DNA from: Ruminococcus sp. AF31-8BH | Lineage (GTDB): Bacteria; Bacillota; Clostridia; Lachnospirales; Lachnospiraceae | Reading direction: 5' to 3' | Assembly: GCF_003460605.1 (NCBI RefSeq) | Contig: NZ_QTVN01000017.1 | Coordinates: forward strand, 37,983-101,982 | Length of the DNA: 64,000 nucleotides | In this document: positions 46,718 to 64,000 of the stretch, in pieces | Layout: every line of letters starts with the position of its first letter | Numbering within the stretch: position 1 is the stretch's first letter | The notes under the pieces: generated by a model | The model's input: the letters and a program-made list of their open reading frames with translations, nothing else | The model's database searches: none | What the model was told of the DNA's origin: nothing | Translations under genes and position numbers: made by a program

Positions 46718-46745
46718 CATGCCCAAAAACAGGAGGTAAATGCTT

Positions 46746-48785: not shown

Positions 48786-49857
48786 GCTGGGGAGCCTTTT
48801 TGACGGGATCGGCGTGTTCCCTCTGGCTGCTTCCCGGTGCGGTATCCGTCCGGTATGGGCCAGCGAGATTGAAAAAGCGCCCATCTCCATAACCAAAAGG
48901 CACTTTCCCGATATGGCGCATTTGGGAGATATTACGAAGGTGGACGGCGGGAAAATCCCGCCGGTCCATGTGATAACCTTCGGCTCTCCCTGTCAGAACC
49001 TTTCTCTGATCGGCAACCGCTCCGGCCTTGCCGGGGCAAAATCAAGCCTGTTCTATCAGGCGTTTCGTATCATACAGGAAATGAGGGATGCTACTGATAA
49101 CCTATATCCAGCTATCGCTGTTTGGGAAAACGTCATGGGAGCGTTTTCTACAAATGACCGGATGGACTTTAGAGCCGTCCTATCCGCCTTCTCGGACACC
49201 GAAGTTCCAATGCCTCCTTCGGGAAGATGGGGAAACGCCGGAATGGTGCGAGGGGGAACGCCTGATGTGTGCTGGCGGCTCATGGACGCCCAGTATTGGG
49301 CAGGCTCCCGAAGGCTGGCACGAAGGCAGCGGATTTTCGTCGTGGCGGATTTTGGAGGCAGACGTGCCGCAGACATACTATTTAAGCCCCGTCCAATGCT
49401 CCCACTTCCTCCGCCTTGCGGAGAGGGCGGGTGGGCCGCCGCCGAAGGAGATCGAACAGCTTCTTTTGAAACAGGGCGGCAGATACCAGTCATCCACCCC
49501 TTTCAGTGCTTCCGTATGCGGGGAGCGGCAAAAAGGCAGGAAGAAACGGCCTTCCGAAACAGCTTCGGATTACCAACTGACCCTTTTCCCACTCTTTTAG
49601 CCAGTGATGTAACGCCCTTTGCCTTCTGGTATGAGGGCGACCCGGAGGGCGGCTGCATCCGTTTTCTGACGGAAACGGAAAGCGAACGGCTGATGGGGCT
49701 GCCGGAGGGCTGGACAAAGTACGGGGCGGACGGCATGGAGATCCGGCCTCTGCAACGCTACAAGGCGCTGGGAAATGCGATTGCCCTCCCTTGCGCCGAT
49801 TACATTATGGCCGGGATCTATGAGGTGCTGGCTGGCAGGGCCGGAAAGGAGGAATAA
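48772..49857 (+). CDS. DNA (cytosine-5-)-methyltransferase of the ICE
   Basis: 361 residues. C5-methylase motifs in order: LGSLFDGIGVFPLA (I), GSPCQNLSLIG (IV, catalytic Cys), VWENVMGAF (VI), RRLARRQRIFVVADF (VIII) and RYKALGNAIALP (X). The target-recognition part between VIII and IX is short, as usual for these mobile-element methylases. It has no restriction partner beside it; together with ArdA it should shield incoming element DNA from host restriction. Confidence 0.92.
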   Translation: MPDIKLGSLFDGIGVFPLAASRCGIRPVWASEIEKAPISITKRHFPDMAHLGDITKVDGGKIPPVHVITFGSPCQNLSLIGNRSGLAGAKSSLFYQAFRIIQEMRDATDNLYPAIAVWENVMGAFSTNDRMDFRAVLSAFSDTEVPMPPSGRWGNAGMVRGGTPDVCWRLMDAQYWAGSRRLARRQRIFVVADFGGRRAADILFKPRPMLPLPPPCGEGGWAAAEGDRTASFETGRQIPVIHPFQCFRMRGAAKRQEETAFRNSFGLPTDPFPTLLASDVTPFAFWYEGDPEGGCIRFLTETESERLMGLPEGWTKYGADGMEIRPLQRYKALGNAIALPCADYIMAGIYEVLAGRAGKEE

Positions 49858-49861
49858 GCCC

Positions 49862-50575
49862 ATGTTTGAAGCCTATATAACCAATACAGCCCTGTACCCC
49901 TTGATGGGGATCGAGGTAGGGACAACGGTACATTTCCCCATGACGACACAGGAGTTGCAGGCCGCCCTTGCCAAAATCGGGATAGACGGGAAACGGTACA
50001 GCGAAGTGTTCTTTACCAGCTTTGACAGTGATGTGCTGGGGCTCTACGATTATCTCTACGAATGTGAGAACATCGACGAGCTGAACGAGCTGGGCCACGC
50101 CCTGCTGGAAGTACGGGATAAGGGCGGACTGGAAACCTTTGAAGCCGCTCTTGTCTTGGGAAACCACACAAGGAGCGTGAAGGATTTGATAAACCTGACG
50201 CAGAACCTTGACCTTTACCGCTTTTACCCGGATATTTCCGATGATGAAGGGCTGGGCCGTCTTTACGCCGACGAGCTTGGGACTATCGACATACCGGAGC
50301 ACATTCAGAACTACTTCGATTATGAGGCATACGGGCGGGATGTGCGTATCAACGAGGGCGGCGTATTCGCTCCCGGTGGGTATGTGTCGGCAGTCCCGGA
50401 GGGCTTCAAGGAGTATTACCACGGGCCGCAGGACATTCCGCCGGAACACCGGATATTTGCCTATCCTGAAAAGGCCGAGCCTGTCCACTCCATTCTCGCT
50501 GCACTCAAACGGTTTCAAGAAGCCCCACCCGCTCCGAAAAAGGACAAGGCGGGGCCTTCCCATGAAGAACGGTAA
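49862..50575 (+). CDS. ardA: Antirestriction protein ArdA
   Basis: 237 residues, acidic DNA-mimic family. The first domain reads MFEAYITNTALYPLMGIEVGT; the acidic mid part (YDYLYECENIDELNELGHAL; YPDISDDEGLGRLYADELG) is typical. ArdA blocks type I restriction enzymes by mimicking bent DNA, helping the element enter new hosts. Four bases separate it from the methylase stop; GGAAAGGAGG precedes it. Palindrome 2 lies directly after its stop. Confidence 0.9.
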   Translation: MFEAYITNTALYPLMGIEVGTTVHFPMTTQELQAALAKIGIDGKRYSEVFFTSFDSDVLGLYDYLYECENIDELNELGHALLEVRDKGGLETFEAALVLGNHTRSVKDLINLTQNLDLYRFYPDISDDEGLGRLYADELGTIDIPEHIQNYFDYEAYGRDVRINEGGVFAPGGYVSAVPEGFKEYYHGPQDIPPEHRIFAYPEKAEPVHSILAALKRFQEAPPAPKKDKAGPSHEER

Positions 50576-50577
50576 GA

Positions 50578-50600
50578 CTTCGGGCCAGCATGGCCCGAAG
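50578..50600 (+). repeat. Stop-codon palindrome 2
   Basis: CTTCGGGCCA-GCA-TGGCCCGAAG, a perfect 10-base dyad two bases after the ardA stop. An ATG lies inside it. Confidence 0.85.
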
Positions 50601-51639
50601 CATAAAGGAGGTGCATACCATCAACTTTTACCCTATCAATGAAGGAGCCGCCCGCCGGGCAAAAGAAATGAACAGCTTTTCCGACTACAAGGAAGGGAGC
50701 GCAACGGCGGAATACCGGGCAATGGTGGATAAGGCCGCCGCCATAGCGGAAAAGCAGAAATCCCGGGTGGACCCCATGTACCATGAGAAGATCGACCATC
50801 TGTTAGACACCTACGCCCGCAAGCTGGCCGAAAACATGAACCAGGGCTTTGCCATTGACGCGAGGGTTCCCTCTGTGCTGATCGCCGGGCCTTCCAATTT
50901 CCCGGTGGGAAAGAAGGAAAAACAGAACCGGGCGCGGGACAGCAACATGGAGGAATGGCGGCATATTCAAGGGCTGCTGGATAAGATACGCAGCACCGGC
51001 ATGGGCGGGATCAGCGCCGATGACCCGGCAGCGATTGAAAAGCTCCAGAAGAAGCTGGACGGGCTGGAACGCTCCCAGCTCATTATGAAGGAGGTCAACG
51101 CCTATTACCGCAAGCATGGCAAGCTGGACGGCTGTGCGCTGCTGTCGCCGGACCAGATTGAAAGGCTGAAAGCAAGCATGGCGTCAAGTTGGCGAAGCGA
51201 CCCGAGGCCCTTTGAAAGTTACCAGCTAACCAACAACAATGCGGAGATCCGCCAGGTAAAGGCCCGTATCGAACAGCTTTCCAAACAGGCACAGCAGGAA
51301 TTTTCCGGCTGGGAGTTCGATGGGGGTCGTGTGGAAATGAACCGGGAGGACAACCGCTTGCAGGTGTTCTTTGACGGAAAGCCTGACGCGGACACCCGGG
51401 CCGAGCTGAAAAGCAGCGGCTTTCGTTGGGCTCCCAGCGTGGGCGCATGGCAGAGGCAGCTCACGGACAACGCCATCCGGGCGGCTGACCGTCTGGAATG
51501 TATCAAGCCGCTGTCCGGCGAAAAGCCCTCCCAGCTTCAAAAGAAGCCCTCTATCTTGCAGACCATGCGGGAACAGGGCGAAAAAGTCCAGACGGAGCCG
51601 GAAAAGAAAGCTCCGTCCGGCAGAGATGCCGAGCGGTAA
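50590..51639 (+). CDS. Uncharacterised Tn1549-type protein (DNA-transfer module)
   Basis: About 340 residues, conserved in this ICE family. The conserved start is probably INFYPINEGAARRAKEMNSF: AAAGGAGG lies seven bases before its first codon, but that codon is ATC (50620). The annotated ATG at 50590 sits inside palindrome 2 without a ribosome site; a GTG at 50611 overlaps the ribosome site. The protein is helical; the end (RLQVFFDGKPDADTRAEL, GFRWAPSVGAWQRQLTDNA) matches a small domain also found at the ends of large ICE helicase/methylase proteins. Function unknown. Confidence 0.75.
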   Translation: MARSIKEVHTINFYPINEGAARRAKEMNSFSDYKEGSATAEYRAMVDKAAAIAEKQKSRVDPMYHEKIDHLLDTYARKLAENMNQGFAIDARVPSVLIAGPSNFPVGKKEKQNRARDSNMEEWRHIQGLLDKIRSTGMGGISADDPAAIEKLQKKLDGLERSQLIMKEVNAYYRKHGKLDGCALLSPDQIERLKASMASSWRSDPRPFESYQLTNNNAEIRQVKARIEQLSKQAQQEFSGWEFDGGRVEMNREDNRLQVFFDGKPDADTRAELKSSGFRWAPSVGAWQRQLTDNAIRAADRLECIKPLSGEKPSQLQKKPSILQTMREQGEKVQTEPEKKAPSGRDAER

Positions 51640-51640
51640 G

Positions 51641-51663
51641 CCTCGGGCCACATTGGCCCGAGG
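51641..51663 (+). repeat. Stop-codon palindrome 3
   Basis: CCTCGGGCCA-CAT-TGGCCCGAGG, a perfect 10-base dyad one base after the stop codon, followed by TTTTCTG. Confidence 0.85.
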
Positions 51664-51730
51664 TTTTCTGTTCCCCGAGATTGTACGGGGGCCTCCCGGA
51701 TAGCGAGAACCCCGACGGAAAGGAGGTTTT

Positions 51731-52201
51731 ATGCAGGAAGAAGTAAACCAAAAAACGGTTGCCCTTTCGATCAGGACAACGAAGCTCACAGGAAAAGTGC
51801 TGGCTGCCGCTCTTGGCAAGGTGGTTCGGGCGCTGCAAAAGCACCACCAGAAGGCGCTGACCCCGCAGGGACGCCAGAGCGTGAAAAAGCTGATGAACCA
51901 CTATGGCGGCAAAAGTGCCATGCCCTATGTGGGAGCTCCAAAGGATTTTGACCGGATCGCGAAGGAGTTCCATGTGGACTACGCTTTCCATAAAGTGAGC
52001 CCCGGTCATTACCTGCTGTTTTTCAAAGCCAATCAGGCGGACGCTATCACGGCGGCCTTCCAGAAGTACAGCGCAAAGGTGCTGAACAAAGAGCAGGACA
52101 AGGCTTCCATCCTCGGTCAGCTTCGGAAATTCACGGAGCAAATCAGGACGCAGGCAAAGGAAAAGCAGCGGACCAGAGAGGCGGTGAAGGACGGACGTTG
52201 A
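51731..52201 (+). CDS. pcfB: PcfB family conjugation protein (DUF3801)
   Basis: 156 residues, basic. Homologous to PcfB of pCF10: VNQKTVALSIRTTKLTGKVLAAAL, the glycine-lysine rich VKKLMNHYGGKSAM, and YAFHKVSPGHYLLFFKANQ. It is an accessory factor that helps the relaxosome dock onto the coupling protein encoded next. Its stop overlaps the TTG start of the coupling-protein gene. GGAAAGGAGG precedes the ATG. Confidence 0.9.
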   Translation: MQEEVNQKTVALSIRTTKLTGKVLAAALGKVVRALQKHHQKALTPQGRQSVKKLMNHYGGKSAMPYVGAPKDFDRIAKEFHVDYAFHKVSPGHYLLFFKANQADAITAAFQKYSAKVLNKEQDKASILGQLRKFTEQIRTQAKEKQRTREAVKDGR

Positions 52202-54021
52202 GTGACAAGATCAGAAAATATGTGCTCCCAAACCTGCCGTACCTCTTTGTGTTCTGGTTTTTCTCCAAAATCGGGACGGCCTACCGGATCGCCCCCGGCA
52301 CAGACTTCGGGACAAAGCTCATGGGGATGCTTGATACCTTCCCCAAAGCCTTTGAAACCTACTGGCCGGGGCTTGGCAGTATTGACCTGCTGGTGGGCCT
52401 TGCCGGTGCGGCTGGGGTGTATCTGCTGATACAGTCAAAGATCAGGCAGGCGAAAAAATTCCGGCGGGATGCGGAATACGGCACCGCCCGCTTTGGAACA
52501 AAGGAGGATATAAAGCCGTTTGTAGACCCTAAATTTCAGAACAATGTCATTCTGACCGGGACGGAGTTCCTTACCATGAACACCCGTCCGAAGATACCTG
52601 CCAATGCCCGGAACCTAAACGCCTGTGTCATCGGCTCGTCCGGCTCGGGAAAGACAAGGTTCTGGTTGACCCCGCAGCTCCTTCAAGCCCATTCCTCGTA
52701 TGTGGTGGTAGACCCGAAGGGCGGCACCCTCGACCAGTGCGGGCGGTTTCTGCAACGGGAGAAATACAGGGTGCGGGTGTTCAACAGTATCGACTTTTCA
52801 AAATCCATGCACTACAATCCGCTGGCCTATATCAAGACAGAAAGCGATGTTTTGAAATTTGTTACCGCCCTGATCGCCAACACCAAAGGCGACGGCAAGG
52901 AGGGCGACGAGTTCTGGACAAAAGCAGAAACCCTCTTGTACTGCGCCCTTGTGTCCTACATCGTCTTTGAGGGGCCGGAGGAAGAACGCAACATGAATAC
53001 GCTGGTGGAAATGATAAACAGCATGGAAGTCCGGGAGGATGACGAAACCTTCAAAAATGCGGTGGACTATATGTTTGACGGGCTGGAACGCCGCAGCCCC
53101 CAGCACTTCGCCGTGAGGCAGTATAAGAAATACAAGCTCGCCAGCGGCAAGACAGCCAAAAGCATCTTGATTTCCTGCGGTGCAAGGCTGGCTCCCTTTG
53201 ATATTCCCCAACTTCGGGAGATCATGTCTTATGACGAGCTGGAGCTGGATAAGCTGGGGGATGAAAAATCGGCGCTGTTCTTTCTTATCAGCGACACGGA
53301 CACCACCTACAACTTTTTGGTTGCCCTCGCTTTTTCGCAGATGTTCAACCTTCTGTGTGAACGGGCTGACAACACCTATGGCGGGCGTCTGCCCTATCAT
53401 GTGCGGGTGCTGTGGGACGAGGCTGCCAACACCGGGCAGGTGCCGGGGCTGGAAAAGATTGTGGCCGTCATCCGCTCCCGTGAGATCAGCCTGACGCTTT
53501 TTTATCAGGCAATGAGCCAGTGCAAGGCATTGTACAAAGACCATTCCGAAACCATCATGGGCAACATGGACAGTATCGTATTCCTCGGAGGCCGGGAGGC
53601 TTCCACCCTAAAGGATATTTCGGAAAACTGGCTGGGCAAGGCCACCATCTCTATGCAGACCGAGGGCCGAAGCCGGGGACAGTCTGAAAGTTACAGCCAG
53701 AATATGCAGCGACTTGGCCGGGAGCTGATGACCACCAGCGAGATCACCACCATGCCCGGGGATAAATGTATCTTGCAGCTTCGGGGGCTCCCGCCCTTCC
53801 TGTCCCCGAAGTATGACTTGAAAAAGCACCCGAATTACAAGTACACAGCCGAATTTGATAAAAAGAAAAACGCCTTCCGCTTGGAAAGCCTGTTCCGCCA
53901 CCGACCATTGAGACTAAAGCCGGAGGACGAATACACGGTGTACGAAGTGGACGGCTCCGACACGGACGAAGAAGCTGACCTGTTGAATTTCGATGATCTG
54001 GACAGCGACGAGTTTGTGTAA
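52198..54021 (+). CDS. VirD4/TraG-type coupling ATPase (T4CP)
   Basis: 607 residues; links the relaxosome to the type IV secretion channel. Two N-terminal membrane helices (about 10-25 and 62-82), Walker A GSSGSGKT (about 145-152), VVVDPKGG, Walker B VRVLWDEAANTGQVPGL and a QAMSQ segment that follows. The acidic C-terminus (DGSDTDEEADLLNFDDLD) probably contacts cargo. The start is TTG, sharing bases with the pcfB stop. Palindrome 4 follows its stop. Confidence 0.95.
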   Translation: MSDKIRKYVLPNLPYLFVFWFFSKIGTAYRIAPGTDFGTKLMGMLDTFPKAFETYWPGLGSIDLLVGLAGAAGVYLLIQSKIRQAKKFRRDAEYGTARFGTKEDIKPFVDPKFQNNVILTGTEFLTMNTRPKIPANARNLNACVIGSSGSGKTRFWLTPQLLQAHSSYVVVDPKGGTLDQCGRFLQREKYRVRVFNSIDFSKSMHYNPLAYIKTESDVLKFVTALIANTKGDGKEGDEFWTKAETLLYCALVSYIVFEGPEEERNMNTLVEMINSMEVREDDETFKNAVDYMFDGLERRSPQHFAVRQYKKYKLASGKTAKSILISCGARLAPFDIPQLREIMSYDELELDKLGDEKSALFFLISDTDTTYNFLVALAFSQMFNLLCERADNTYGGRLPYHVRVLWDEAANTGQVPGLEKIVAVIRSREISLTLFYQAMSQCKALYKDHSETIMGNMDSIVFLGGREASTLKDISENWLGKATISMQTEGRSRGQSESYSQNMQRLGRELMTTSEITTMPGDKCILQLRGLPPFLSPKYDLKKHPNYKYTAEFDKKKNAFRLESLFRHRPLRLKPEDEYTVYEVDGSDTDEEADLLNFDDLDSDEFV

Positions 54022-54044
54022 CTTCGGGCCATGATGACCCGAAG
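54022..54044 (+). repeat. Stop-codon palindrome 4
   Basis: CTTCGGGCCA-TGA-TGACCCGAAG (one G-T pair), directly after the coupling-protein stop. Confidence 0.8.
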
Positions 54045-54045
54045 C

Positions 54046-54070
54046 GCCGCCGATATGGGCGGCTTTTTTT
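54046..54070 (+). terminator. Terminator after the coupling-protein gene
   Basis: GCCGCC (54046-54051) pairs with GGCGGC (54058-54063) and is followed by seven T. With palindrome 4 it forms a double hairpin. Confidence 0.7.
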
Positions 54071-54110
54071 GTACCCAAAACCATCAAACAAACAAAATGG
54101 AGGAACGTAT

Positions 54111-54251
54111 ATGGAATTTTTCAATCAGGCAATCGACATTCTTAAAATTCTGGTCATGGCTCTTGGCGCCGGTCTGGCGGTGTGGGGCGTCATCAACCTT
54201 CTGGAAGGTTACGGGTCGGACAACCCTGCGGCAAATGCTCATGTACAGTAA
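54111..54251 (+). pseudogene. Maff2-family pilin-like protein, truncated by the nested element
   Basis: Reads MEFFNQAIDILKILVMALGA then a membrane helix and NLLEGYGSDNPAAN, exactly the N-terminal half of Maff2 (VirB2-like, about 75 residues). After base ~54236 the homology stops: AHVQ and a stop replace the expected SQG..QLMAGGG second helix. The gene is broken by insertion of a second element, so the outer ICE probably cannot build its channel unless that element leaves. Confidence 0.85.
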
Positions 54252-54333
54252 AGAAGCAAACAACCGAAAACAAGAGATAGACCGCCAGCACCACACTATT
54301 CCGAACCAAAGAGCAAACGACAAGCACCATGGA

Positions 54334-54463
54334 AATGTGTATAACTTGCTATTCCGTTATGGAAAAGTCCGTTCACAGAACATGGAAAAGCTAAAGAGCA
54401 GCTTTCCCACATTCTGCAAACGGACTTTCCCACAACTCCATAAGATAGCAAGTTATGCACATT
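54334..54463 (+). repeat. 130-base imperfect inverted repeat near the nested element's left end
   Basis: AATGTGTATAACTTGCTAT (54334-54352) matches the complement of 54445-54463; further inward GGAAAAGTCCGTT pairs with AACGGACTTTCC and TGGAAAAGCT with AGCTTTCCCA. Arms are about 58 bases with a loop near 54390. It lies about 100 bases inside the element. Confidence 0.8.
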
Positions 54464-54540
54464 ACGCACAGTGCCGACTGCTGCGGAAGCCCTCTCATTT
54501 CATTATCTATTCAAGAAAATAAATTATGAATTTTTTTCTT

Positions 54541-54587
54541 AACACTACTGCGGTAGTGTTGACAACCGATTAAGAAAGGTGTAATGT
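54541..54587 (+). promoter_or_regulatory. Promoter and BlaI-type operator of the blaI-blaR1 pair
   Basis: AACACTACTGCGGTAGTGTT (54541-54560) is a perfect dyad that overlaps the -35 box TTGACA (54559-54564); the -10 box TAATGT is at 54582-54587 (17-base spacer). ACTACTGCGG recurs at 54602 and ACTGCGGTAGTG at 55046, inside blaR1, so three related sites exist. Confidence 0.8.
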
Positions 54588-54633
54588 GTAATCAAGCAGA
54601 AACTACTGCGGTCTTGTGGAAAGGAGGAAACAA

Positions 54634-54993
54634 ATGGATATTAAACTTTTCGATTCAGAATTGAAAGTAATGTGTGTGCTTTGGAACGAGGGCGACACCA
54701 CTGCAAAACACATATCCGACGTTCTGAAAAAAGAAATTGGCTGGAACATGAATACTACCTACACACTGATAAAAAGGTGTATCAAAAAAGGGGCGATTGA
54801 ACGTTCCGAGCCTAATTTCATGTGCCATGCCCTTATTCCCAAAGAAGAAGTACAGGAAGCGGAAACAAAAGAATTGGTTGACAAGATTTATGACGGTTCA
54901 GTTGACAAACTGTTTGCAGCCCTGTTAGGCAGAAAAAAGCTTTCCGCTGAACAGATTCAGAAGCTCAAGCAGATTGTGGAAGATTTGGAATGA
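54634..54993 (+). CDS. BlaI/MecI/CopY family repressor
   Basis: 119 residues. Winged helix (LFDSELKVMCVLWNEGDTTAKHI; NMNTTYTLIKRCIKKGAIERSE) and a C-terminal dimerization/cleavage helix. AAGGAGG precedes the ATG. By family knowledge it binds operator dyads (here the CTACTGCGGTAG sites) and is inactivated by proteolysis when the partner receptor is triggered. The receptor gene follows after 10 bases. No beta-lactamase gene is present in the element as seen, so the regulated target is unknown. Confidence 0.9.
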   Translation: MDIKLFDSELKVMCVLWNEGDTTAKHISDVLKKEIGWNMNTTYTLIKRCIKKGAIERSEPNFMCHALIPKEEVQEAETKELVDKIYDGSVDKLFAALLGRKKLSAEQIQKLKQIVEDLE

Positions 54994-55003
54994 GGTGGTG
55001 TAA

Positions 55004-56677
55004 ATGAATTTACTGCAAATGAGCTTTTCGGGGGCTGCTTTCATTACTGCGGTAGTGATTATCCGTGCGGTGGCAATCAATAAACTGCCGAAAAAGACTT
55101 TTCTTGTTTTATGGGAATTGGTGATATTAAGACTGCTTATCCCGTTTTCGATTCCGTCAATGTTTAGTGTTTATACGTTGGTAACTCATAGCATATCTTC
55201 TACAACATTGCCGGAAGCTGGAACAGATTACAACATTCCCGCTATGCAAGGGCTGTTTGTTACGACACAGGGAGCAGAACAGCCGCCAGAGAATATTTTA
55301 TCATCTGTTTCCATGTGGTTTATTGTATGGTGTGCAGGAATAATACTTATCGCATTGTTTTTTGTAATATCCTATTTGCGTTGTCTGATTGAATTTCGGA
55401 CAGCTTTACCCGTCCACAACCATTATGTAGAAAAGTGGCTGGCGGAACGCCCATTGAAACGTCCAATTTTGGTAAAGCAATCTGATAGGATTTCCGCCCC
55501 ATTAACTTATGGCATTTTCCGTCCTGTTATTTTGGTGCCGAAAAAAATGGACTGGAAAAATGAAAAACAACTGCAATATGTCCTCTCACATGAATATGTG
55601 CATATTTATCGCTATGATACTGTAACAAAGCTGATTGCGACACTTGCCCTTTGTATTCATTGGTTCAACCCCTTTGTGTGGGTGATGTATATTCTTTTTA
55701 ACCGTGATATAGAACTGGCTTGTGATGAAAGCGTCATACGACAATTTGGAGAAAAATCAAAATCTGCCTATTCGCTAATGCTTATCAACATGGAAGCAAC
55801 GAAAAGTGGGCTATTGCCATTTTGTAACAGCTTTAGTAAAAATGCTATCGAAGAAAGGATAACTGCTATTATGAAAACAAAAAAAACAACTATTTTTTCG
55901 CTGGTACTGGCGTGTCTGATTGTTGTCGGGGTAGCTACAGCATTTGCAACTTCCGCCCAAGCTAATAATAATCCAATTTTTGAAGAACAGGAGTACAAAC
56001 CAATACATGCTTCCGAGAATGCTTCAGATTACGATACGGCGGCAGAACTGCCCGGCGGTAATATTGACTATGGGATATATGAAGAATATGGATTGATTTA
56101 TGATAAGAATAGCAAGTGCTACACTTACAAGGGAAATGTTGTCCGATTTTTTAATGACCCAGTGGGCGGCGCAAGTTTTACCAATTTCTTTACGGGAACA
56201 GTGGATATTGAAGCGGAACGGGATACAAACGATAAACTTATTGGTATTCGGGAATGCACAAAAGAAGTTTATGACAGGCATACAGAAAAGTATGAAAATT
56301 CAGGACTTAAATCAATGCCCGCTGGCACTTCTACAGAAAATGGAGATATGATTAGAAATCATGAATCTTACAGCATGGAATCTGGAGATAAGACAGAAAA
56401 CATGAATACGCTCCAAGATTATGAATCCTATGGCATAGTTTATCACCCAAAAGATGGGTATTGGTACTACAACGACCAGATAATTGGTATATTCATTGAT
56501 ACTAAAAAACCCATCATCTATTTTAATAACAGTGGCAGTATATATCTTTCCATTGCTGAAAATAGTGAAAATGGAGTTATGGAGATTAAGGAAATTTCCG
56601 AAGCGGAAGCACAAAAACTTTTACGGGATAATAATTCGGGCAATTCTGCTTCATTCACAGTAGAAACCTTGAAATAA
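55004..56677 (+). CDS. BlaR1/MecR1-like M56 metallopeptidase receptor with non-PBP sensor
   Basis: 557 residues. Four N-terminal membrane helices surround the M56 peptidase: zinc motif His196-Glu197-x2-His200 (SHEYVHIYRYD) and the downstream ELACDESVIRQFG (third ligand). A further helix at about 290-310 leads to an extracellular part of about 240 residues. Instead of a penicillin-binding domain (no SxxK) this part shows two related copies of a YEEYGLIYDK...YTYKGN / YESYGIVYHP...YYNDQ module (about 359-385 and 473-498). So it senses something other than a beta-lactam; ligand unknown. Confidence 0.88.
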   Translation: MNLLQMSFSGAAFITAVVIIRAVAINKLPKKTFLVLWELVILRLLIPFSIPSMFSVYTLVTHSISSTTLPEAGTDYNIPAMQGLFVTTQGAEQPPENILSSVSMWFIVWCAGIILIALFFVISYLRCLIEFRTALPVHNHYVEKWLAERPLKRPILVKQSDRISAPLTYGIFRPVILVPKKMDWKNEKQLQYVLSHEYVHIYRYDTVTKLIATLALCIHWFNPFVWVMYILFNRDIELACDESVIRQFGEKSKSAYSLMLINMEATKSGLLPFCNSFSKNAIEERITAIMKTKKTTIFSLVLACLIVVGVATAFATSAQANNNPIFEEQEYKPIHASENASDYDTAAELPGGNIDYGIYEEYGLIYDKNSKCYTYKGNVVRFFNDPVGGASFTNFFTGTVDIEAERDTNDKLIGIRECTKEVYDRHTEKYENSGLKSMPAGTSTENGDMIRNHESYSMESGDKTENMNTLQDYESYGIVYHPKDGYWYYNDQIIGIFIDTKKPIIYFNNSGSIYLSIAENSENGVMEIKEISEAEAQKLLRDNNSGNSASFTVETLK

Positions 56678-56731
56678 CAAGTGTCTTATAAACCATACGC
56701 CGTATTATGTGGGAGAAAGGGGGAACTATTT

Positions 56732-57169
56732 ATGCCTTGCACAGAAGCATATAAGGAGCATATCGAGTACACCTTTAATGCCTTTTGCAGAGTTGTCATA
56801 CACTATGCAGCAATCAACGCATGGCGTGACAGGGATAAACGGCGGCAAAGGGAAATATCCTTTGAATATCTCACAGAAGAAAAGTTTTATCCATTTTGTA
56901 CGTCAGACACATATTTCATAGACCCTTACAAGCAATACCCTGTTACGATATGCGGTCAGAGGGTTATCCTCACAAATGGAAATCTTGCCGAAGCCCTGTC
57001 CTCTCTGCCAGAGAAAAAGAGGGAAATCATTTACCTTTATTTTTTCGGGCGTTACACACAGCAGGAAATCGGGGAACTGTACGGACGCTGCCGGAGTACG
57101 GCGTGGCATCACATACACAGTGCCTTGCAAATGCTGCATGAAGAAATGGAGGTGCTGTCCCATGAGTAG
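56732..57169 (+). CDS. Sigma-70 region 4-like protein (145 aa)
   Basis: Start at 56732 after GGGGGAAC. The C-terminal third is sigma region 4: ALSSLPEKKREIIYLYFFGRYTQQEIGELYGRCRSTAWHHI (residues about 88-128, quoted as landmarks LPEKKR and QQEIGELYG). No region 2 is recognisable, so it is probably not a complete sigma factor. It resembles the Orf7-like proteins of Tn916-type elements, which act in element gene control. Its end overlaps the next start by eight bases. Confidence 0.8.
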   Translation: MPCTEAYKEHIEYTFNAFCRVVIHYAAINAWRDRDKRRQREISFEYLTEEKFYPFCTSDTYFIDPYKQYPVTICGQRVILTNGNLAEALSSLPEKKREIIYLYFFGRYTQQEIGELYGRCRSTAWHHIHSALQMLHEEMEVLSHE

Positions 57170-57362
57170 CCTACTTCTCCCCTATGACACGATAATAAAA
57201 GCACATGAGGGCGACCCCATAGCGATACAAGCTGTCCTTGACCGATATGCCGGGTATATCCGCTATTTCTCCAAAATGAACGGCTATTATAATTCTGATA
57301 TGGAGGACTACATCAGAACAAAGCTGATTGAAAGCCTGTTCAAGTTCCGGCTTGACCGATAA
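57162..57362 (+). CDS. Helix-turn-helix conjugative-element protein (Orf8-like)
   Basis: 66 residues, the small HTH family (PF12645-like): IIKAHEGDPIAIQAVLDRY, GYIRYFS, MEDYIRTKLIESLFKF. Overlaps the sigma-like gene by eight bases, so the pair is translationally coupled as in Tn916-type elements (Orf7/Orf8). Role presumably in regulation of transfer; unproven. Confidence 0.82.
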   Translation: MSSLLLPYDTIIKAHEGDPIAIQAVLDRYAGYIRYFSKMNGYYNSDMEDYIRTKLIESLFKFRLDR

Positions 57363-57944
57363 CATAAAAACTGAATATCCCGCCGCCCCGCAGCAGCACA
57401 TGAAGCAGTAAATCCGAAAAAGATTTGCTGCTTTTTTTGCGCCCATTTTTGGCAAATTTCCAAAAGTTCCGTATTAGACATTGAAGCTAAAAAGGCTGCC
57501 ATTTTTTTAGACAGCGGGCAAAACGCAGCTTCCGAAACGCCTTATTGTCGGGAAAGACCGAGCCGCCGGAAAAGTTCTTGCCGGAAAGTCCGTCATTTTT
57601 GCTTTTTGCGGTGTTGTAGGGAGTAAGAGGAAGAACGCCAGCCCGCAGCCTTTTATGAAAAAGCTGGTTATAGATTTTCTGAAAAAGTGGCAGTAGGAAG
57701 TGAACGGCAGTCCGGCAGTTTCTTAGAGCAAGATTCTACCGCAGTACCAAAATTCGCTTTTCGCTCATTTTGCCCCTGCGGGAATCTTGTTGGGGAGTGC
57801 CTTCCCCAAACCCTGCTTATGCGGCTTGCGCCGCTTAAAAATCCTTCAAAATATTTTTTCGGATTTTTCAAAAACAGTTCCGCTTCACACCCCGTTTTTC
57901 TCCTATTAGTGAGAGGACACCACGCACAGAAAGGAGGTTTTACC
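57363..57944 (+). other. Long intergenic region with terminator and oriT candidate
   Basis: 580 bases. After the terminator at 57404-57438 no coding frame is credible. At 57790-57809 TTGGGGA-GTGCC-TTCCCCAA forms a perfect dyad, followed by ACCCTGCTTATG and a second dyad GCGGC/GCCGC (57821-57835). Inverted repeat followed by a short unpaired stretch right upstream of mobC is the usual look of an origin of transfer. Confidence 0.5.
57404..57438 (+). terminator. Terminator of the regulator block
   Basis: AGCAGTAAATC (57404-57414) pairs with GATTTGCTGCT (57422-57432), followed by a run of seven T. Confidence 0.88.
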
Positions 57945-58343
57945 ATGCGAAAACGATACAACACACCGCACCGCAGCCGGGTAGTCAAAACACGCATGAC
58001 CGAGGAAGAATACGCCGAGTTTGCAGAAAGGCTTTCTGCCTACAACATGAGCCAAGCCGAGTTTATCCGGCAAGCCATAACCGGGGCAGCCATACGCCCC
58101 ATCATAACCGTTTCTCCCGTCAATGATGAGCTGCTTGCCGCTGTTGGGAAGCTGACCGCCGAATACGGCAGGATCGGCGGCAACTTAAACCAGATAGCCC
58201 GGACGCTGAACGAGTGGCACAGCCCCTACCCGCAGCTTGCCGGGGAGGTACGGGCGGCGGTTTCCGACCTTGCTGCCCTAAAGTTTGAAGTCTTGCAGAA
58301 AGTGGGTGACGCTGTTGGCAACATTCAAACATATCAGCTCTAA
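57945..58343 (+). CDS. mobC: MobC-family mobilization protein
   Basis: 132 residues. Ribbon-helix-helix N-terminus (VVKTRMTEEEYAEFAERL; MSQAEFIRQAITG) and the C-terminal MobC signature GRIGGNLNQIARTLN. It binds the origin of transfer and assists the relaxase. The start at 57945 follows AAAGGAGG; the frame extends far upstream but without support. It overlaps the relaxase start by 29 bases. Confidence 0.92.
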   Translation: MRKRYNTPHRSRVVKTRMTEEEYAEFAERLSAYNMSQAEFIRQAITGAAIRPIITVSPVNDELLAAVGKLTAEYGRIGGNLNQIARTLNEWHSPYPQLAGEVRAAVSDLAALKFEVLQKVGDAVGNIQTYQL

Positions 58344-59937
58344 AAATGCGGACTATGGCGCAGCGGAAGCCTACCTCACATTTGAGTATGACGAGTTTAC
58401 CATGAAGCCCACCCTTGATGAAAACGGGCGGCTGATACCGAGGGAGGATTACCGCATTTCTTCCCTTAACTGCGGGGGCGAGGATTTCGCTGTTGCCTGT
58501 ATGCGGGCTAATCTCCGCTATGAGAAAAACCAAAAACGGGAAGATGTGAAAAGCCACCACTATATCATCAGCTTTGACCCACGGGACGGGACAGACAACG
58601 GCTTGACCACAGACCGGGCGCAGGAACTGGGGGAACAGTTCTGCAAGGCACATTTCCCCGGACACCAAGCCCTAATCTGCACCCACCCGGACGGGCATAA
58701 CCACAGCGGGAATATCCATGTGCATATCGTCATCAACTCCCTGCGGATTTACGAAGTCCCGCTTCTGCCCTACATGGACAGACCAGCCGACACAAGGGAG
58801 GGCTGCAAGCACCGCTGTACCAATGCCGCTATGGAATATTTCAAGAGTGAAGTCATGGAGATGTGCCACCGGGAGGGGCTTTACCAAATCGACCTCTTGA
58901 ACGGCAGCAAGGAACGGATAACCGAACGGGAATACTGGGCGGCAAAGAAAGGGCAGCTTGCCCTTGATAAAGAGAACGCCGCCAGAGAAGCCGCAGGACA
59001 GCCGACCAAGCCCACCAAGTTTGAAACGGACAAGGCGAAGCTGCGCCGGACGATACGGCAGGCACTTTCCCAAGCTGCCAGCTTTGACGAGTTTTCTTCC
59101 CTTTTGCTGCAGGAGGGTGTGACCGTCAAGGAGAGCCGGGGGCGGCTTTCCTACCTCACGCCGGACAGGACGAAGCCTATCACAGCCCGGAAGCTGGGGG
59201 ACGATTTTGACAAGGCTGCTGTCCTTGCCCTGCTTACGCAGAACGCCCACAGAGCCGCCGAACAGACCAAAGCCATACCGGAATACCCACACACCCAAAA
59301 GGGACGCTTGCAGGAGGAAAAAGCCGCAAAAACCACCCCGGCAGACAACATCTTGCAGCGCATGGTTGACCGGGAAGCCAAGCGAGCCGAGGGCAAGGGC
59401 GTGGGTTATGACCGCTGGGCGGCAAAGCACAACCTAAAGCAGATGGCGGCTACCGTTACTGCCTACCAGCAGTACGGCTTTTCTTCCCCGGAGGAACTGG
59501 ACGAAGCCTGTTCTGCCGCCTATGCCGCCATGCAGGAAAGCCTTGCAGAGCTGAAGCAGGTGGAAAAGACGCTGAACGGGAAAAAGGAGCTGCAACGACA
59601 GGTGCTTGCCTATTCCAAGACCCGCCCTGTCCGGGACGGGCTGAAACAGCAGAAAAACGCCAAAGCAAAAGCAGCCTACCGTCAGAAGTACGAAAGCGAC
59701 TTTATCATAGCAGACGCAGCCGCCCGCTATTTCAGGGAGAACGGCATTTCCAAGCTGCCGAGCTATAAAGCCCTGCAAGCAGAGATTGAAACCCTTATCC
59801 AAGAGAAAAACAGCGGCTACAACGATTACCGGGCAAAACGGGAGGAATACCGCCGCTTACAGACTGTCAAGGGCAATATCGACCAGATTTTACACCGGGA
59901 GCGCAAGCCTGTGAAAAGGCAGGAACAGGAACGATAA
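58315..59937 (+). CDS. MobA/MobL-type relaxase
   Basis: 540 residues with a TTG start at 58315 (conserved MATFKHISSKNADYGA; an upstream GTG at 58306 is possible). Relaxase core in the first 250 residues: KSHHYIISFDPRDG, then the HUH-type metal motif HPDGHNHSGNIHVHIVIN. The catalytic Tyr is probably in ADYGAAEAYLTFEYDEF. The C-terminal half is a charged coiled-coil region. It nicks the origin of transfer and pilots the strand into a recipient, using a helper secretion system. Confidence 0.92.
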   Translation: MATFKHISSKNADYGAAEAYLTFEYDEFTMKPTLDENGRLIPREDYRISSLNCGGEDFAVACMRANLRYEKNQKREDVKSHHYIISFDPRDGTDNGLTTDRAQELGEQFCKAHFPGHQALICTHPDGHNHSGNIHVHIVINSLRIYEVPLLPYMDRPADTREGCKHRCTNAAMEYFKSEVMEMCHREGLYQIDLLNGSKERITEREYWAAKKGQLALDKENAAREAAGQPTKPTKFETDKAKLRRTIRQALSQAASFDEFSSLLLQEGVTVKESRGRLSYLTPDRTKPITARKLGDDFDKAAVLALLTQNAHRAAEQTKAIPEYPHTQKGRLQEEKAAKTTPADNILQRMVDREAKRAEGKGVGYDRWAAKHNLKQMAATVTAYQQYGFSSPEELDEACSAAYAAMQESLAELKQVEKTLNGKKELQRQVLAYSKTRPVRDGLKQQKNAKAKAAYRQKYESDFIIADAAARYFRENGISKLPSYKALQAEIETLIQEKNSGYNDYRAKREEYRRLQTVKGNIDQILHRERKPVKRQEQER

Positions 59938-60122
59938 AAACCGCCCCAAAATGTACCCGAACCTATACAGAACAAGGGGGCTGCCCCGTACCCTATCCGC
60001 AAATACCAAAGGATTTTTTAACGGGCTTATAGGGCAGAAAAACCCCGAAAATGATACCGAGATGATACAGAATTACCGCCGATACCGCCACACCAGCGGA
60101 AACGGCAGAAAGGAGCGCACCC

Positions 60123-60335
60123 ATGCCAAGAATGAGCAAGAAACGGCGGCTGGAATGGTCTTTTTTCCTGCGGCAAGTGAAAGTCGGGAATTCCACCTGC
60201 GACCGTATCACATACAATGACCTCTGCCGGGGCTGTACCCATAGCTGCAAGCAGAGCTTCCGGGCGATTATCATACTCTGCCCCCACTACTACTCCAAAC
60301 GCCGGAAAAAGGAGGACAGTGACAATGGCAGATAA
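60123..60335 (+). CDS. Small cysteine-rich element protein (70 aa)
   Basis: MPRMSKKRRLEWSFFLR, then DRITYNDLCRGCTHSCKQS: a Cys-x2-Cys-x3-Cys motif that is conserved in small proteins of Lachnospiraceae mobilizable elements. GAAAGGAG precedes the ATG. It overlaps the replication initiator start by 11 bases. Likely zinc-binding; function unknown. Confidence 0.75.
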   Translation: MPRMSKKRRLEWSFFLRQVKVGNSTCDRITYNDLCRGCTHSCKQSFRAIIILCPHYYSKRRKKEDSDNGR

Positions 60336-61074
60336 CCGCAAGTATTACTACCTCAAGCTGAAAGAGAACTTTTTTGACAGCGACTCCATTGTGCTGCTGG
60401 AAGATATGAAAGACGGGATTTTATACTCCAATATCCTCTTGAAGCTGTACTTAAAATCGCTGAAAAACGGCGGTAAATTGCAGCTTGACGAGCATATCCC
60501 CTACACAGCGCAGATGATAGCGACACTGACCCGCCACCAGATAGGAACGGTTGAGAGGGCTTTGGAGATTTTCCGGCAGTTGGGGCTTGTGGAGCAGCTT
60601 GACAGCGGGGCTTTCTATATGACCGACATTGAGTTGATGATAGGACAGTCCTCTACCGAAGCCGAGCGAAAACGGGCGGCAAGGCTTGCAAACAAGGCTT
60701 TGCCACCACCCCGGACAAACGGCGGACATTTGTCCGACATTCGTCCACCAGAGATAGAGATAAAGAAAGAGATAGATATAGAGATAGAAAAAGAGAGAGA
60801 GTTAGAAACGGGACAAGCCCCCGCCCGCAGCTATGGCAGATACAACAATGTTTTTCTTTCCGATACGGAACTGGACGAGCTGAAAGCGGAACTGCCCGAC
60901 AAATGGGAGTATTATATTGACCGGCTTTCCTGCCATATCGCTTCCACCGGGAAGCAGTACCACAGCCATGCAGCCACCATTTACAAGTGGGCGCAGGAGG
61001 ACGCTGCCAAAGGCAAGGCTGCCCCGAAACAGGGCATACCCGATTATTCATGCAAGGAGGGCGAGAGCTTATGA
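60325..61074 (+). CDS. Replication initiator, phage replisome organizer type
   Basis: 249 residues, start MADNRKYYYLKLKENFFDSD after AAAAGGAGG. The N-terminal winged-helix region (about 1-120; ILYSNILLKLYLKSLKNGGKL) is the replisome-organizer/RepA_N-type fold that binds origin repeats. A charged linker with a run of IE/KE dipeptides (about 160-185) is followed by a DnaD-like C-terminal part. It works with the DnaC-like loader encoded next (four-base overlap), so the element probably replicates as a circle after excision. Confidence 0.85.
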   Translation: MADNRKYYYLKLKENFFDSDSIVLLEDMKDGILYSNILLKLYLKSLKNGGKLQLDEHIPYTAQMIATLTRHQIGTVERALEIFRQLGLVEQLDSGAFYMTDIELMIGQSSTEAERKRAARLANKALPPPRTNGGHLSDIRPPEIEIKKEIDIEIEKERELETGQAPARSYGRYNNVFLSDTELDELKAELPDKWEYYIDRLSCHIASTGKQYHSHAATIYKWAQEDAAKGKAAPKQGIPDYSCKEGESL

Positions 61075-61925
61075 AAAACGAGATTGAAGCTATGATTACG
61101 GACATTACAGCCACTACCGCCGAAGCGGAGGACTACACAGGCGAGGACGGGCTTTTATACTGCGGCAAGTGCCATACGCCCAAAGAAGCCTACTTTGCAG
61201 AGGGAAAGACCTGTTTCGGGCGTGACCGCCACCCAACAGACTGCGACTGCCAGCGAGCAGCCCGTGAAAAGCAGCAAGCCGCCGAAAGCCGACAGAAGCA
61301 CCTTGAAAAAGTGGAGGACTTGAAACGCCGGGGCTTTACCGACCCTGCTATGCGGAACTGGACATTTGAGCATGACAACGGCAGAAACCCACAGACCGAA
61401 ACCGCCCGCTTTTATGTGGAGAGCTGGGAAACCATGCAGGCTGAAAATATCGGCTACCTGTTTTGGGGCGGCGTGGGGACAGGAAAAAGCTACCTTGCCG
61501 CCTGTATCGCCAACGCCCTTATGGAGAAAGAGGTTGCCGTCTGTATGACAAACTTTGCAACCATACTCAATGACCTTGCTGCCAGCTTTGATGGCAGGAA
61601 CGAATATATTTCCCGCCTTTGCAGCTACCCCCTGCTGATACTTGATGATTTTGGTATGGAGCGAGGAACAGAATACGGGCTGGAACAGGTTTACAGCGTG
61701 ATTGACAGCCGTTACCGAAGCGACAAGCCGCTGATCGCCACGACCAACCTCACGCTGGAGGAATTGCAGCACCCACAGGACACGCCCCACGCCCGTATCT
61801 ATGACAGGCTGACTTCCATGTGCGCCCCCGTCCGCTTCACGGGCAGCAACTTCCGAAAGGAAACCGCACAGGAAAAACTGGAACGCTTAAAGCAACTGAT
61901 GAAGCAGCGAAAGGAGAGCCTATGA
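61071..61925 (+). CDS. DnaC-like helicase loader ATPase
   Basis: 284 residues. An N-terminal zinc region (LYCGKCHTPKEAYF ... DCDCQ) is followed by the AAA+ core: Walker A GGVGTGKS (about 133-140), Walker B LLILDDFGME, sensor ATTNLTLEEL and the arginine-finger region RIYDRLTSMCAP. It overlaps the initiator stop by ATGA and its own stop overlaps tnpW by the same motif. It loads the host replicative helicase. Confidence 0.93.
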   Translation: MKNEIEAMITDITATTAEAEDYTGEDGLLYCGKCHTPKEAYFAEGKTCFGRDRHPTDCDCQRAAREKQQAAESRQKHLEKVEDLKRRGFTDPAMRNWTFEHDNGRNPQTETARFYVESWETMQAENIGYLFWGGVGTGKSYLAACIANALMEKEVAVCMTNFATILNDLAASFDGRNEYISRLCSYPLLILDDFGMERGTEYGLEQVYSVIDSRYRSDKPLIATTNLTLEELQHPQDTPHARIYDRLTSMCAPVRFTGSNFRKETAQEKLERLKQLMKQRKESL

Positions 61926-62119
61926 CAGAAACGAAACAGACAAGCACCACCAAAACAGACCGCCGCCCGGACTGTGTAACGGAAATCCGCATGGGCAATT
62001 CCGTCCTTACCGTTTCCGGCTTCTTCAAGCAGGGCGCAACCGATACCGCAGCCGACAAGATGATGAAAGTGCTGGAAGCGGAGGCTGCTGCCGGACATAC
62101 GCCACCGTTCAGCGCATAA
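61922..62119 (+). CDS. Transposon-encoded protein TnpW
   Basis: 65 residues; RRPDCVTEIRMGNSVLTVSG and FFKQGATDTAADKMMKV match the TnpW family of clostridial mobilizable transposons (Tn4451-type). Overlaps the loader gene by four bases. Function unknown. Confidence 0.8.
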   Translation: MTETKQTSTTKTDRRPDCVTEIRMGNSVLTVSGFFKQGATDTAADKMMKVLEAEAAAGHTPPFSA

Positions 62120-62180
62120 GTGATGACATGGAAAAGCGGTCACGCCGGGGAGCATGACCGCTGGAATATCAGTAACAACT

Positions 62181-62720
62181 TTATTTTTTCCGAAGTTTCA
62201 ACTCAATGCCTTTTGGAGCAGCTATATCCTGCAACAGTTTTGCGATAACAGAAGCCTGTTCTTTCTTCCCCATACTTTGAAAATCCTTATCGGATTTAAC
62301 TGTTTGCAAGATATTTTCAATTTCTTTAATCGTTAAGAGATTGACTGCAACACAGAATAGATTTTTTCTGCGCCCGTCATTATAGTGTGACAAGAGGAAA
62401 TCCAATAATTTGCGCTTTTCTTCCTGTTCAGCATTATAGGCGGGAATCCCTATCTGGCTGGCTTTTTCCATGTCATTCATTTGATTATGATGAGTTATAA
62501 AAGAATCAAAATCATCTATATGAGCGTATTTGTCACAAGGGAAGCTGGTACACTGAAAGCAATATTCGATTTTCCCATGTTCAATACTGCACTTTGCGAT
62601 TTTACAACTTTGATTATCAACGCCGCAACCGGAACAATGCCCTGCCAAATTCATAGGACATAATTTACAATTTAGACCACAAAGAGAAAGGTACTGATTG
62701 TTACGGACAAACCCTTTCAT
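62181..62720 (-). CDS. DUF3795-type cysteine-rich protein, reverse-oriented cargo
   Basis: 179 residues, the only minus-strand gene in this element. Ten cysteines in the first 70 residues (LCGLNCKLCPMNLAGHCSGC; CSIEHGKIEYCFQC; FPCDKY), the DUF3795 pattern, presumably a zinc or iron-sulfur site. The C-terminal half is helical. The start at 62720 (MKGFVRNN) is used because GGGGGTG precedes it. Lower GC than its neighbours, so probably a separate acquisition. Confidence 0.8.
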   Translation of the reverse strand: MKGFVRNNQYLSLCGLNCKLCPMNLAGHCSGCGVDNQSCKIAKCSIEHGKIEYCFQCTSFPCDKYAHIDDFDSFITHHNQMNDMEKASQIGIPAYNAEQEEKRKLLDFLLSHYNDGRRKNLFCVAVNLLTIKEIENILQTVKSDKDFQSMGKKEQASVIAKLLQDIAAPKGIELKLRKK

Positions 62721-62933
62721 TGTCACACCCCCTTGTATTGATTGGCTCCATTTTACCATAAGAACAAGAGTTTTTCTACTATGCAATCCCAATCATCTGC
62801 TACACAAAAAACGGCGATTTGACCGACCATAAAGAAGCAGATTTGACGCTTTTGCCGCTATACAGACAGCCGCCCCATGTGGTACAATCAAGGTACGGAA
62901 TAGTGGGGCTGGCTGTCGGAAACGGAGGATTTT

Positions 62934-64000
62934 ATGTTAAGACAGACCAACCAACAACCAATTACCGCCCTTTACCCAAGACTTTCCCATGAGGACGAGC
63001 TGCAAGGCGAAAGCAATTCCATTTCCAATCAGAAGCGTATCCTTGAAACCTATGCAAAGCAGAACGGCTTTTCCAATCTGCGCTGGTACACGGACGACGG
63101 TTATTCTGGTGCGAACTTTCAAAGACCCGGTTTCCAAGCCATGCTTGCGGACATTGAAGCCGGAAAAGTCGGGACAGTTATCGTAAAGGATATGTCGAGG
63201 TTAGGGCGAAACTACCTGCAAGTGGGAATGTATACGGAAATGATTTTCCCACAGAAAGGTGTCCGCTTCATCGCTATCAATGACGGAGTGGACAGCGCAC
63301 AGGGCGACAATGATTTTGCCCCGCTGCGGAATATCTTTAACGAATGGCTGGTGAGAGATACGAGCAAGAAAATCAAAGCAGTAAAACGCTCAAAAGGCAT
63401 GAGTGGCAAGCCCATCACAAGCAAGCCTGTGTATGGTTACCTCATGGACGAGGACGAAAATTTCATTATTGACGAGGAAGCTGCACCCGTAGTCAAGCAG
63501 ATATACAACCTCTGCCTTGCCGGGAATGGTCCGACCAAGATAGCCCGTATGCTCACAGAGCAGCAGATCCCCACGCCGGGGACGCTGGAATACCGCAGGA
63601 CGGGCAGCACCCGCCGCTACCACCCCGGCTATGAATGCAAGTGGGCGACCAATACCGTTGTGCATATCCTTGAAAACCGGGAATACACAGGCTGTCTGGT
63701 AAATTTCAAGACAGAAAAGCCCTCTTACAAAGTCAAGCACAGCGTAGAAAATCCCCCGGAGAAGCAAGTGATTTTCGAGAACCACCACGAGCCTATCATA
63801 GACACCCAGACATGGGAACGGGTGCAGGAACTTCGCAAGCAGCGCAAACGCCCCAACCGCTATGATGAAGTGGGCTTGTTCTCCGGCCTACTGTTCTGTG
63901 CGGACTGCGGCAGTGTGATGTATCAGCAGCGATACCAGACGGACAAACGCAAGCAGGACTGTTATATCTGCGGCAACTACAAGAAACGCACCCATGACTG
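62934..64000 (+). CDS. Large serine recombinase (partial, runs off the window)
   Basis: Starts ATG at 62934 after CGGAGG. The resolvase domain has the catalytic Ser18 in LYPRLSHEDE, NSISNQKRILETYA, DDGYSGANFQRPGFQ and VKDMSRLGRN; the recombinase domain (KPVYGYLMDEDENF onward) and the start of the zinc ribbon (LLFCADCGSVMY, CYICGNYKKR) follow. At least 355 residues lie in the window; the coiled-coil end is outside. It is the TnpX-like integrase that should excise and insert the nested element. Confidence 0.92.
   Translation, partial: MLRQTNQQPITALYPRLSHEDELQGESNSISNQKRILETYAKQNGFSNLRWYTDDGYSGANFQRPGFQAMLADIEAGKVGTVIVKDMSRLGRNYLQVGMYTEMIFPQKGVRFIAINDGVDSAQGDNDFAPLRNIFNEWLVRDTSKKIKAVKRSKGMSGKPITSKPVYGYLMDEDENFIIDEEAAPVVKQIYNLCLAGNGPTKIARMLTEQQIPTPGTLEYRRTGSTRRYHPGYECKWATNTVVHILENREYTGCLVNFKTEKPSYKVKHSVENPPEKQVIFENHHEPIIDTQTWERVQELRKQRKRPNRYDEVGLFSGLLFCADCGSVMYQQRYQTDKRKQDCYICGNYKKRTHD

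Follow-up and report, generated by a model that had tools for sequence, protein, structure and literature searches.

A mobilizable element very probably inserted, with base precision, in the maff2 gene of a conjugative element, probably of Tn5252/Tn1549 type, of Ruminococcus sp. AF31-8BH

The stretch analysed here, 64,000 nucleotides of Ruminococcus sp. AF31-8BH (contig NZ_QTVN01000017.1, positions 37,983 to 101,982; hereafter the window), carries part of an integrative and conjugative element (ICE), probably of the Tn5252/Tn1549 type, and in the maff2 gene of this ICE there sits, very probably, an integrative mobilizable element (IME) with a predicted length of about 10.4 kb. A mobilizable element with its own recombinase inside the maff2 of an ICE had been proposed earlier from the letters of the window alone (the original prediction), and both the content in protein families and a junction comparison bear this out. 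The interruption of maff2 in the window is confirmed to be real and is precisely definable.

The maff2 reading frame is true to its family and then breaks, much as had been described: the match to the Pfam family Maff2 (PF12750, E-value 8.5e-23) covers only profile positions 1-43 of 70. The head of the gene amounts to 41 codons (window 54111-54233) and reads ...LLEGYGSDNPAA, after which come NAHVQ and a stop, the five codons being contributed by the element. In an alignment with 14 intact Maff2 proteins the homologues run on past the break with KQLMAGGG or a close variant, as the original prediction expected. The break is not a matter of chance, since it coincides with the end of the element in an independent record, MT839717, and interrupts maff2 at the same codon in 35 of the 51 relatives of the element with a readable left junction; in all 35 the stop falls at the same codon as in the window.

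Of particular weight is the comparison with uninterrupted genes. A recombinase scan of genome contigs gave 503 relatives, the best 80 of which (92-99% identical) are the basis of all junction counts; these 80 were ranked nearest by their recombinase and cannot be counted as independent cases (G labels denote genomes and L labels loci). Both flanks were compared separately with 14 intact maff2 loci, and 22 loci match. With the best intact partner the flanks overlap by exactly 2 bp in 20 of the 22, and 83 of all 99 locus-partner pairs give 2 bp; the best agreement is that of L056 with L082 as partner, at 100% identity through 83 bp of left flank and 1202 bp of right flank. This comparison, which the original prediction had set as its check, yields a 2-bp core, AA, in the Lys codon of NPGA-K-SQG: elements with near-identical recombinases are joined at the AA of the Lys42 codon, in one orientation, with no loss or gain beyond the core. 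The two sides can also be exchanged independently. The same element is found in another ICE, as MT839717 is identical to window 54231-57199 (the element's left 3 kb or so) at 2968 of 2969 bp and has to its left the head of another maff2, identical at 86 of 140 bp, and a divergent virD4. The same ICE is found with another element, as G334 matches window 46555-54326 at 97.3-97.5% and bears a Tet-carrying IME at the same base. As to the nature of the first of these records, MT839717.1 (L124) is an unannotated human faeces entry of 5654 bases labelled 'Bacteriophage sp.'; it contains virD4-like, maff2 and IME cargo DNA, and has the look of an ICE/IME fragment, not of a phage.

DNA specific to the element starts at 54236. 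The left ends of the relatives read AA-TGCTCATG...TAAAGAAG, with variants, and their right ends CTTCTTTAT...CA-AA, the inverted counterpart of the left repeat, mostly about 92 bp after the recombinase stop. The core and the next two bases are AATG in all 51 left junctions; the base preceding AA varies (C16, A14, G11 and T10 of 51), and thus belongs to the target. Left junctions are readable in 51 of the 80 relatives (35 in maff2, 16 elsewhere) and right junctions in 76 (47 in maff2, reading KSQG..., and 29 elsewhere), and the two sides are never in conflict; the four left out on the right were L009, which the pattern missed and whose flanks are not maff2, L019 and L065, where the contig ends, and L054, whose gene runs off. 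The distance from recombinase start to core end is most commonly 1703 bp (12 of 31 maff2 relatives on loci longer than 20 kb), which puts the predicted right end of the window's element near 64636. Among the 47 maff2 relatives the tail of the gene is full length in 35 and open to its stop in every one of these; in the other 12 it is cut again, nine times so as to read Q(F/L/V)MAN-stop. Since the interrupted tails are undamaged, the insertion is reversible in principle. The contig of L065 (QXXE01000108.1, 11623 bp) is of some interest by itself, holding one IME end to end plus one base, a form to be expected if the assembler collapsed several copies in one genome.

How regularly maff2 is struck was estimated by searching 394 genomes from the order of G001 with the Pfam Maff2 profile; matches are listed for 65 of them. 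All census figures given here refer to the matches listed; heads were counted by hand, with tails and two matches beginning at position 13 or 16 excluded. Of 114 heads, 64 are full length (to position 70), which contradicts the idea, named in the original prediction as one that would count against it, that Maff2 homologues naturally end at the break. Another 33, free of internal stops, terminate at profile position 41-43 (site-1-type heads) and ten at 51, eight codons further on, so that 43 of the 114 end at one of two positions. Two more end at 29. Of the site-1-type heads, 12 of the 33 directly abut DNA like the left end in the window. The five heads remaining end at 42-46; four of them have an internal stop, and one overlaps its own tail, which makes a frameshift probable there.

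The element itself fits an IME in content. Families for mobilization, replication and serine recombination occur from 54236 to the window end, in keeping with the self-contained module first proposed, and a Pfam scan of nine element frames gave no match to a type IV secretion channel family, so that the supposed lack of secretion genes also holds for these frames (Table 1). The element has an integration and excision enzyme of its own, recognizable by large serine recombinase domains; it has its own relaxase (PF03432) and NikA/MobC-like relaxosome protein with no channel among the nine frames; and it has defined ends and precise integration, the left end being observed directly and the right end taken from relatives only. 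The recombinase has an open frame throughout its 355 codons inside the window; its relatives have about 536, leaving some 180 C-terminal codons beyond the window.

Table 1. Features of the inserted element and of the adjoining host ICE genes (window coordinates)
Feature	Position	Strand	Evidence
VirD4/TraG coupling protein gene of host ICE, uninterrupted	52198..54021	+	PF02534 E 5.6e-51, PF12696
maff2 5' part plus NAHVQ* from element left end	54111..54251	+	PF12750 1-43 of 70; aligned with 14 intact Maff2
Core dinucleotide AA, common to element and target, in Lys42 codon of maff2	54234..54235	+	
Left terminal repeat TGCTCATGTACAGTAAAGAAG	54236..54256	+	kept at left ends of relatives
Palindromic repeat, 174 bp, in left arm	54327..54500	.	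fold of window 54315-54500
BlaI/MecI/CopY-type repressor (cargo)	54634..54993	+	PF03965 E 4.6e-23
BlaR1-like M56 metallopeptidase (cargo)	55004..56677	+	PF05569 E 4.5e-50
Sigma-70-like protein	56681..57169	+	PF04545 E 2.9e-10; 50/80 relatives matched
NikA/MobC-like relaxosome protein	57945..58343	+	PF21983 E 8.7e-14; 75/80 relatives
Relaxase, MobA/VirD2-like, start codon uncertain	58285..59937	+	PF03432 E 2.8e-14; 76/80 relatives
Replisome organiser (Phage_rep_org_N)	60325..61074	+	PF09681 E 1.9e-31
DnaC/IstB-like helicase loader	61071..61925	+	PF01695 E 2.6e-13; NF005992 above cut-off
TnpW-like protein	61922..62119	+	PF14202 E 2.3e-10
DUF3795 protein, optional insert between TnpW and recombinase	62181..62792	-	PF12675 E 2.7e-6
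Large serine recombinase, cut by window end	62934..64000	+	PF00239, PF07508, PF13408

Some of the evidence weighs against this account, or limits it. The window's own copy displays the left junction only, the right junction, the remainder of the recombinase and the 3' half of maff2 all lying beyond the window. Two of the 22 intact-site loci deviate from 2 bp: L045 carries maff2 in tandem, and for L013 the identity is about 70%. Among the 99 pairs, 16 differ, two with 1 bp and 14 with offsets of 308-1077 bp, the latter being tentatively read as tandem maff2 copies. Relatives outside maff2 make up 29 of 76, and site specificity is thus not absolute; their targets share a weak common pattern, AA......gGG.aT. 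One of the 29 heads that are complete in their locus (L072) has an internal stop, which means that some copies do decay, and one more lacks Met at the start position. Finally, a Streptococcus suis IME in snf2 is described in the available text of PMC7168690 as one whose excision went undetected by polymerase chain reaction, its ICE having transferred and carried the IME along in cis.

The S. suis case speaks for the possibility that the IME is a passive passenger, which no longer excises and moves only with the ICE, transfer of the ICE being independent of Maff2. One class of ICESp2905 transconjugants, which received the whole ICE with both of its IMEs (PMC5704250, in the part available), would also fit this. 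We nevertheless consider it unlikely, given that the left part of the element recurs near-identically in the other ICE of MT839717, that the ICE of G334 has a different IME at the same base, that none of the 35 interrupted full-length tails is damaged, and that the recombinase is open within the window. Far less credence still, indeed almost none, attaches to the suggestion that the short Maff2 is a natural form ending here, followed by ordinary ICE genes. A short frame with its own stop does exist, and the constancy of the stop codon in the 35 maff2 left junctions speaks for it; the stop, however, sits in the terminal repeat of the element, most heads in the census reach position 70, and the exchanges seen in MT839717 and G334 separate the element from the gene in both directions. 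Comparison with intact genes and the census both led us to reject the short form.

A third alternative accepts the insertion and concerns the helper: the IME may owe its mobilization chiefly to a second ICE in the same cell, one whose maff2 is intact and which would act in trans, rather than to the ICE in which it resides. An intact maff2 is listed in 10 of the 23 genomes with a site-1-type head, and likewise in 7 of 12 genomes of a further comparison, but in 13 of the 23 none is found among the matches listed. We take mobilization in trans to be a possibility with less than even chances.

What the insertion does to the ICE depends on the role of Maff2. Its structure model is a two-helix hairpin (helices 2-36 and 39-69, mean predicted local distance difference test score 91), and the cut at residue 42 lies just past the turn. 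The original prediction spoke of a disrupted channel gene; the split in the ICE's maff2 stands, but a channel role for Maff2 is only putative, no Foldseek match of the model to solved structures being better than E 1.9. A role as a VirB2-like pilin is likewise no more than a candidate, with no sequence match in solved structures better than E 0.086. Nor is there evidence that the detached Maff2 tail, read from its internal Met, has a function of its own. We infer that the host ICE acts as helper of the IME. On this basis the IME would excise as a circle, with maff2 re-formed, its relaxase would nick the circle, and export would proceed through VirD4 and the type IV secretion genes of the host ICE or of another ICE in the cell. 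As long as it is inserted, the IME splits maff2 and adds an in-frame stop, and in relatives a terminator-like hairpin near the right end stands ahead of the genes on the virB6 side. The hairpin was found after the recombinase of L003 (one found against 0.2 expected) and is kept in all 19 right ends aligned, of the 80; with it in place, the insertion may also silence downstream transfer genes. Given the split gene, the stop and the hairpin, the host ICE is probably hampered in its transfer for as long as the IME has not excised.

It is tempting, if doubtful, to go further and regard maff2 as a reversible docking switch, where a site-1 IME, often joined by another insertion eight codons further along and at times by one more in virD4, would split and terminator-block the secretion genes; coordinated excision alone would re-arm the ICE, and the hitchhikers would control the departure of their vehicle. 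If this were true, the 43 of 114 heads ending at two positions, among the matches listed, would represent a standing regulatory state and not damage.

Stacked insertions are in fact seen in the closest ICE copies, those of G334, L063, G097 and G303, the last of which has no readable right side. Identity to the window is 92% both for L063 (compared over 52001-54326) and for G097 (compared over the 636 bp searched). In all three with a readable right side (G334, L063 and G097) the maff2 tail is cut again, reading KQFMAN-stop, and the 3' half of the window's own maff2 may thus lie about 10 kb beyond the right end. The original prediction had held that failure to find this half within a few kb after the recombinase would refute it; in view of these three copies that test is unsafe. 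In G334 the site-1 IME in maff2 extends from 713644 to about 725655, and a second element, which has a serine recombinase besides a MobA/MobL relaxase, separates SQGIKQ from the maff2 tail (736255), 10.6 kb on; a VirB6-like gene follows that tail. An insertion of 13.8 kb, likewise containing a MobA/MobL relaxase, interrupts the virD4 of G334 at window position 53146-53147. The second maff2 site is occupied alone in G001:C2 and at one place in G010.

Two further observations concern these target genes. Firstly, virD4 appears to be a second hotspot, the ends of its insertion in G334 (G334:C2:698736 and 712556) again giving a 2-bp overlap, and the virD4 match also begins at 53146 in six of the 80 relatives (L031, L034, L035, L036, L043 and L080). 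Secondly, G109:C9, G377:C3, G185:C7, G303:C56 and G311:C25 as well as L041 and L045 have maff2 in tandem, with some 300 bp between the copies, or about 1 kb in the case of L045; a spare copy could buffer the insertion of an IME.

The gene content of the 80 relatives (tblastn, 40% coverage) separates a backbone from a cargo bay. Relaxase was matched in 76, the MobC-like protein in 75, the DnaC-like protein in 78, TnpW in 79 and the replisome organiser in 72, the match to the last lying outside the element in at least L034, L036, L046 and L079. This backbone, with the recombinase, is largely constant, and the left arm is the cargo bay. The antisense DUF3795 gene is present in three relatives only (L001, L002 and L021), at 99-100% identity. 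A frame of more than 300 amino acids starting MKIIN occurs in 28 of the 80 loci; those scanned (L003, L013 and L063) encode Tet ribosomal protection proteins, as does their counterpart in G334. The window's recombinase is 99% and its relaxase 94-95% identical to those of the Tet-carrying L003 and L013.

In contrast to this arrangement, the window's element has BlaI and M56 genes, whose relatives among the 80 loci are confined to L076, at 26-29% identity. The Pfam scan of the M56 peptidase gave no second domain and no beta-lactam sensor domain. The protein has 6773 relatives among 7996 scored candidates, its own cluster alone having 2172 member sequences, and the cargo is thus not rare in sequence databases. 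The 394 genomes of the order of G001 yielded no near-identical counterpart of the cargo arm (window 54240-56680): 79 of them match, but either in the left arm alone (up to 260 bp, 82-94%) or in stretches of the cargo, most of these at 64-78% and a few, shorter than 50 bp, above that. Plasmid records gave no megablast match, and no viral contigs with the M56 protein were found.

IMEs in maff2, and several IMEs in one ICE, are already described, and the comparisons that follow draw on the parts of the cited papers that were available. PMC5357655 reports IMEs in maff2 at two distinct positions and the idea of excision on induction of conjugation, and the paradox of an IME that disrupts a conjugation gene of its helper has been in print there since 2017; maff2 is also named among IME targets in PMC13214566. 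PMC5704250 tabulates, for maff2 site 1, an IME with MobP, replisome organiser and DnaC and, for site 2, one with MobQ, a pairing that resembles the one found here. Close to the window's element by description is IME_ScoC232_maff2_site1 of Streptococcus constellatus (PMC5357655, PMC5704250), which shares the serine recombinase, MobP relaxase, replisome organiser and DnaC and lies at the internal site S1 of a Maff2-related gene in a Tn5252-related ICE. IMESp2907 of Streptococcus pyogenes likewise lies in the maff2 of a Tn5252-type ICE, ICESp2905, and is reported to transfer alone or with it, maff2-inserted IMESp2907 alone being one of three kinds of transconjugant; however, it occupies site S2 and has a MobQ relaxase and erm(TR) cargo, and is closer to the second maff2 element of G334 (PMC5704250).

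Tn6104, one of three mobilizable transposons inside Tn6103 of Clostridioides difficile (PMC3158075), is also a serine-recombinase element with sigma factor-like genes and a 2-bp direct repeat in a conjugative transposon, but its target is the coupling-protein gene traG (PMC5704250, Table 1), not maff2, and its mobilisation gene is of the mobA/mobL type. IME_Rho_tet (PMC12904643), with 116 of 256 reconstructed sites in MAFF2 genes and maff2 thus a main target, has, like the window's element, a relaxase, mobC and a serine recombinase; its 21-bp terminal inverted repeats and its 3' boundary 81-90 bp after the recombinase stop appear similar to what is seen here, the window having a left terminus as judged by comparison with relatives. 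By definition it carries a tetracycline ribosomal protection gene, where the window's element has the BlaI, M56 and sigma genes. No Tet protein is among the nine frames scanned, and the element is therefore not filed as IME_Rho_tet, with which it only shares a backbone.

The AA core, the BlaI-M56 cargo and a census of split maff2 genes were not found in the text consulted on maff2 IMEs (text as distinct from figures and supplements), nor, to judge by titles and the beginnings of abstracts, was a paper on an IME with BlaR1/BlaI and a serine recombinase. What is added here is a base-exact target, the AA of the Lys42 codon, a cargo that is invisible to searches requiring a tetracycline-resistance gene, and an estimate of how often maff2 is struck. 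Intact, split and doubly split copies of maff2 have now been located, and the nearly identical ICEs of the window and G334 provide two of the split ones; the question raised by PMC5357655, whether such an IME blocks or gates its helper, thereby becomes more directly testable.

The left arm of the element also contains a palindrome; the DNA of window 54315-54500 folds at -45 kcal/mol (z -9.65). Copies of the 174-bp repeat are found outside IMEs, upstream of the maff2 head in other ICEs (L076:1127-1286, L049:2536-2693), and it may accordingly be a small mobile repeat of its own. Its Rfam matches (mir-9457 and two others) score far under the gathering thresholds and were dismissed as hairpin look-alikes.

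In the host ICE, the Tn5252/Tn1549-type order VirD4-Maff2-VirB6-PrgI is represented in the window by VirD4 and the Maff2 head, the remainder, if present, lying beyond 64000; a VirB6-like gene stands 3' of maff2 in L111 and in G334, whose ICE is 97% identical, and PrgI is present in L111. Further upstream the ICE encodes ParB-N, C5 methylase, ArdA and DUF3801 proteins. Similarity to the ICE of G334 starts at window 46555, which may mark where the ICE, or the conserved part of it, begins on the left. To the left of this, on the minus strand at 34743-46629, lie defence-like genes, among others, with RmrA/RmrT matches, an McrC-like protein beside an AAA protein, Vsr and a weak type IV restriction match.

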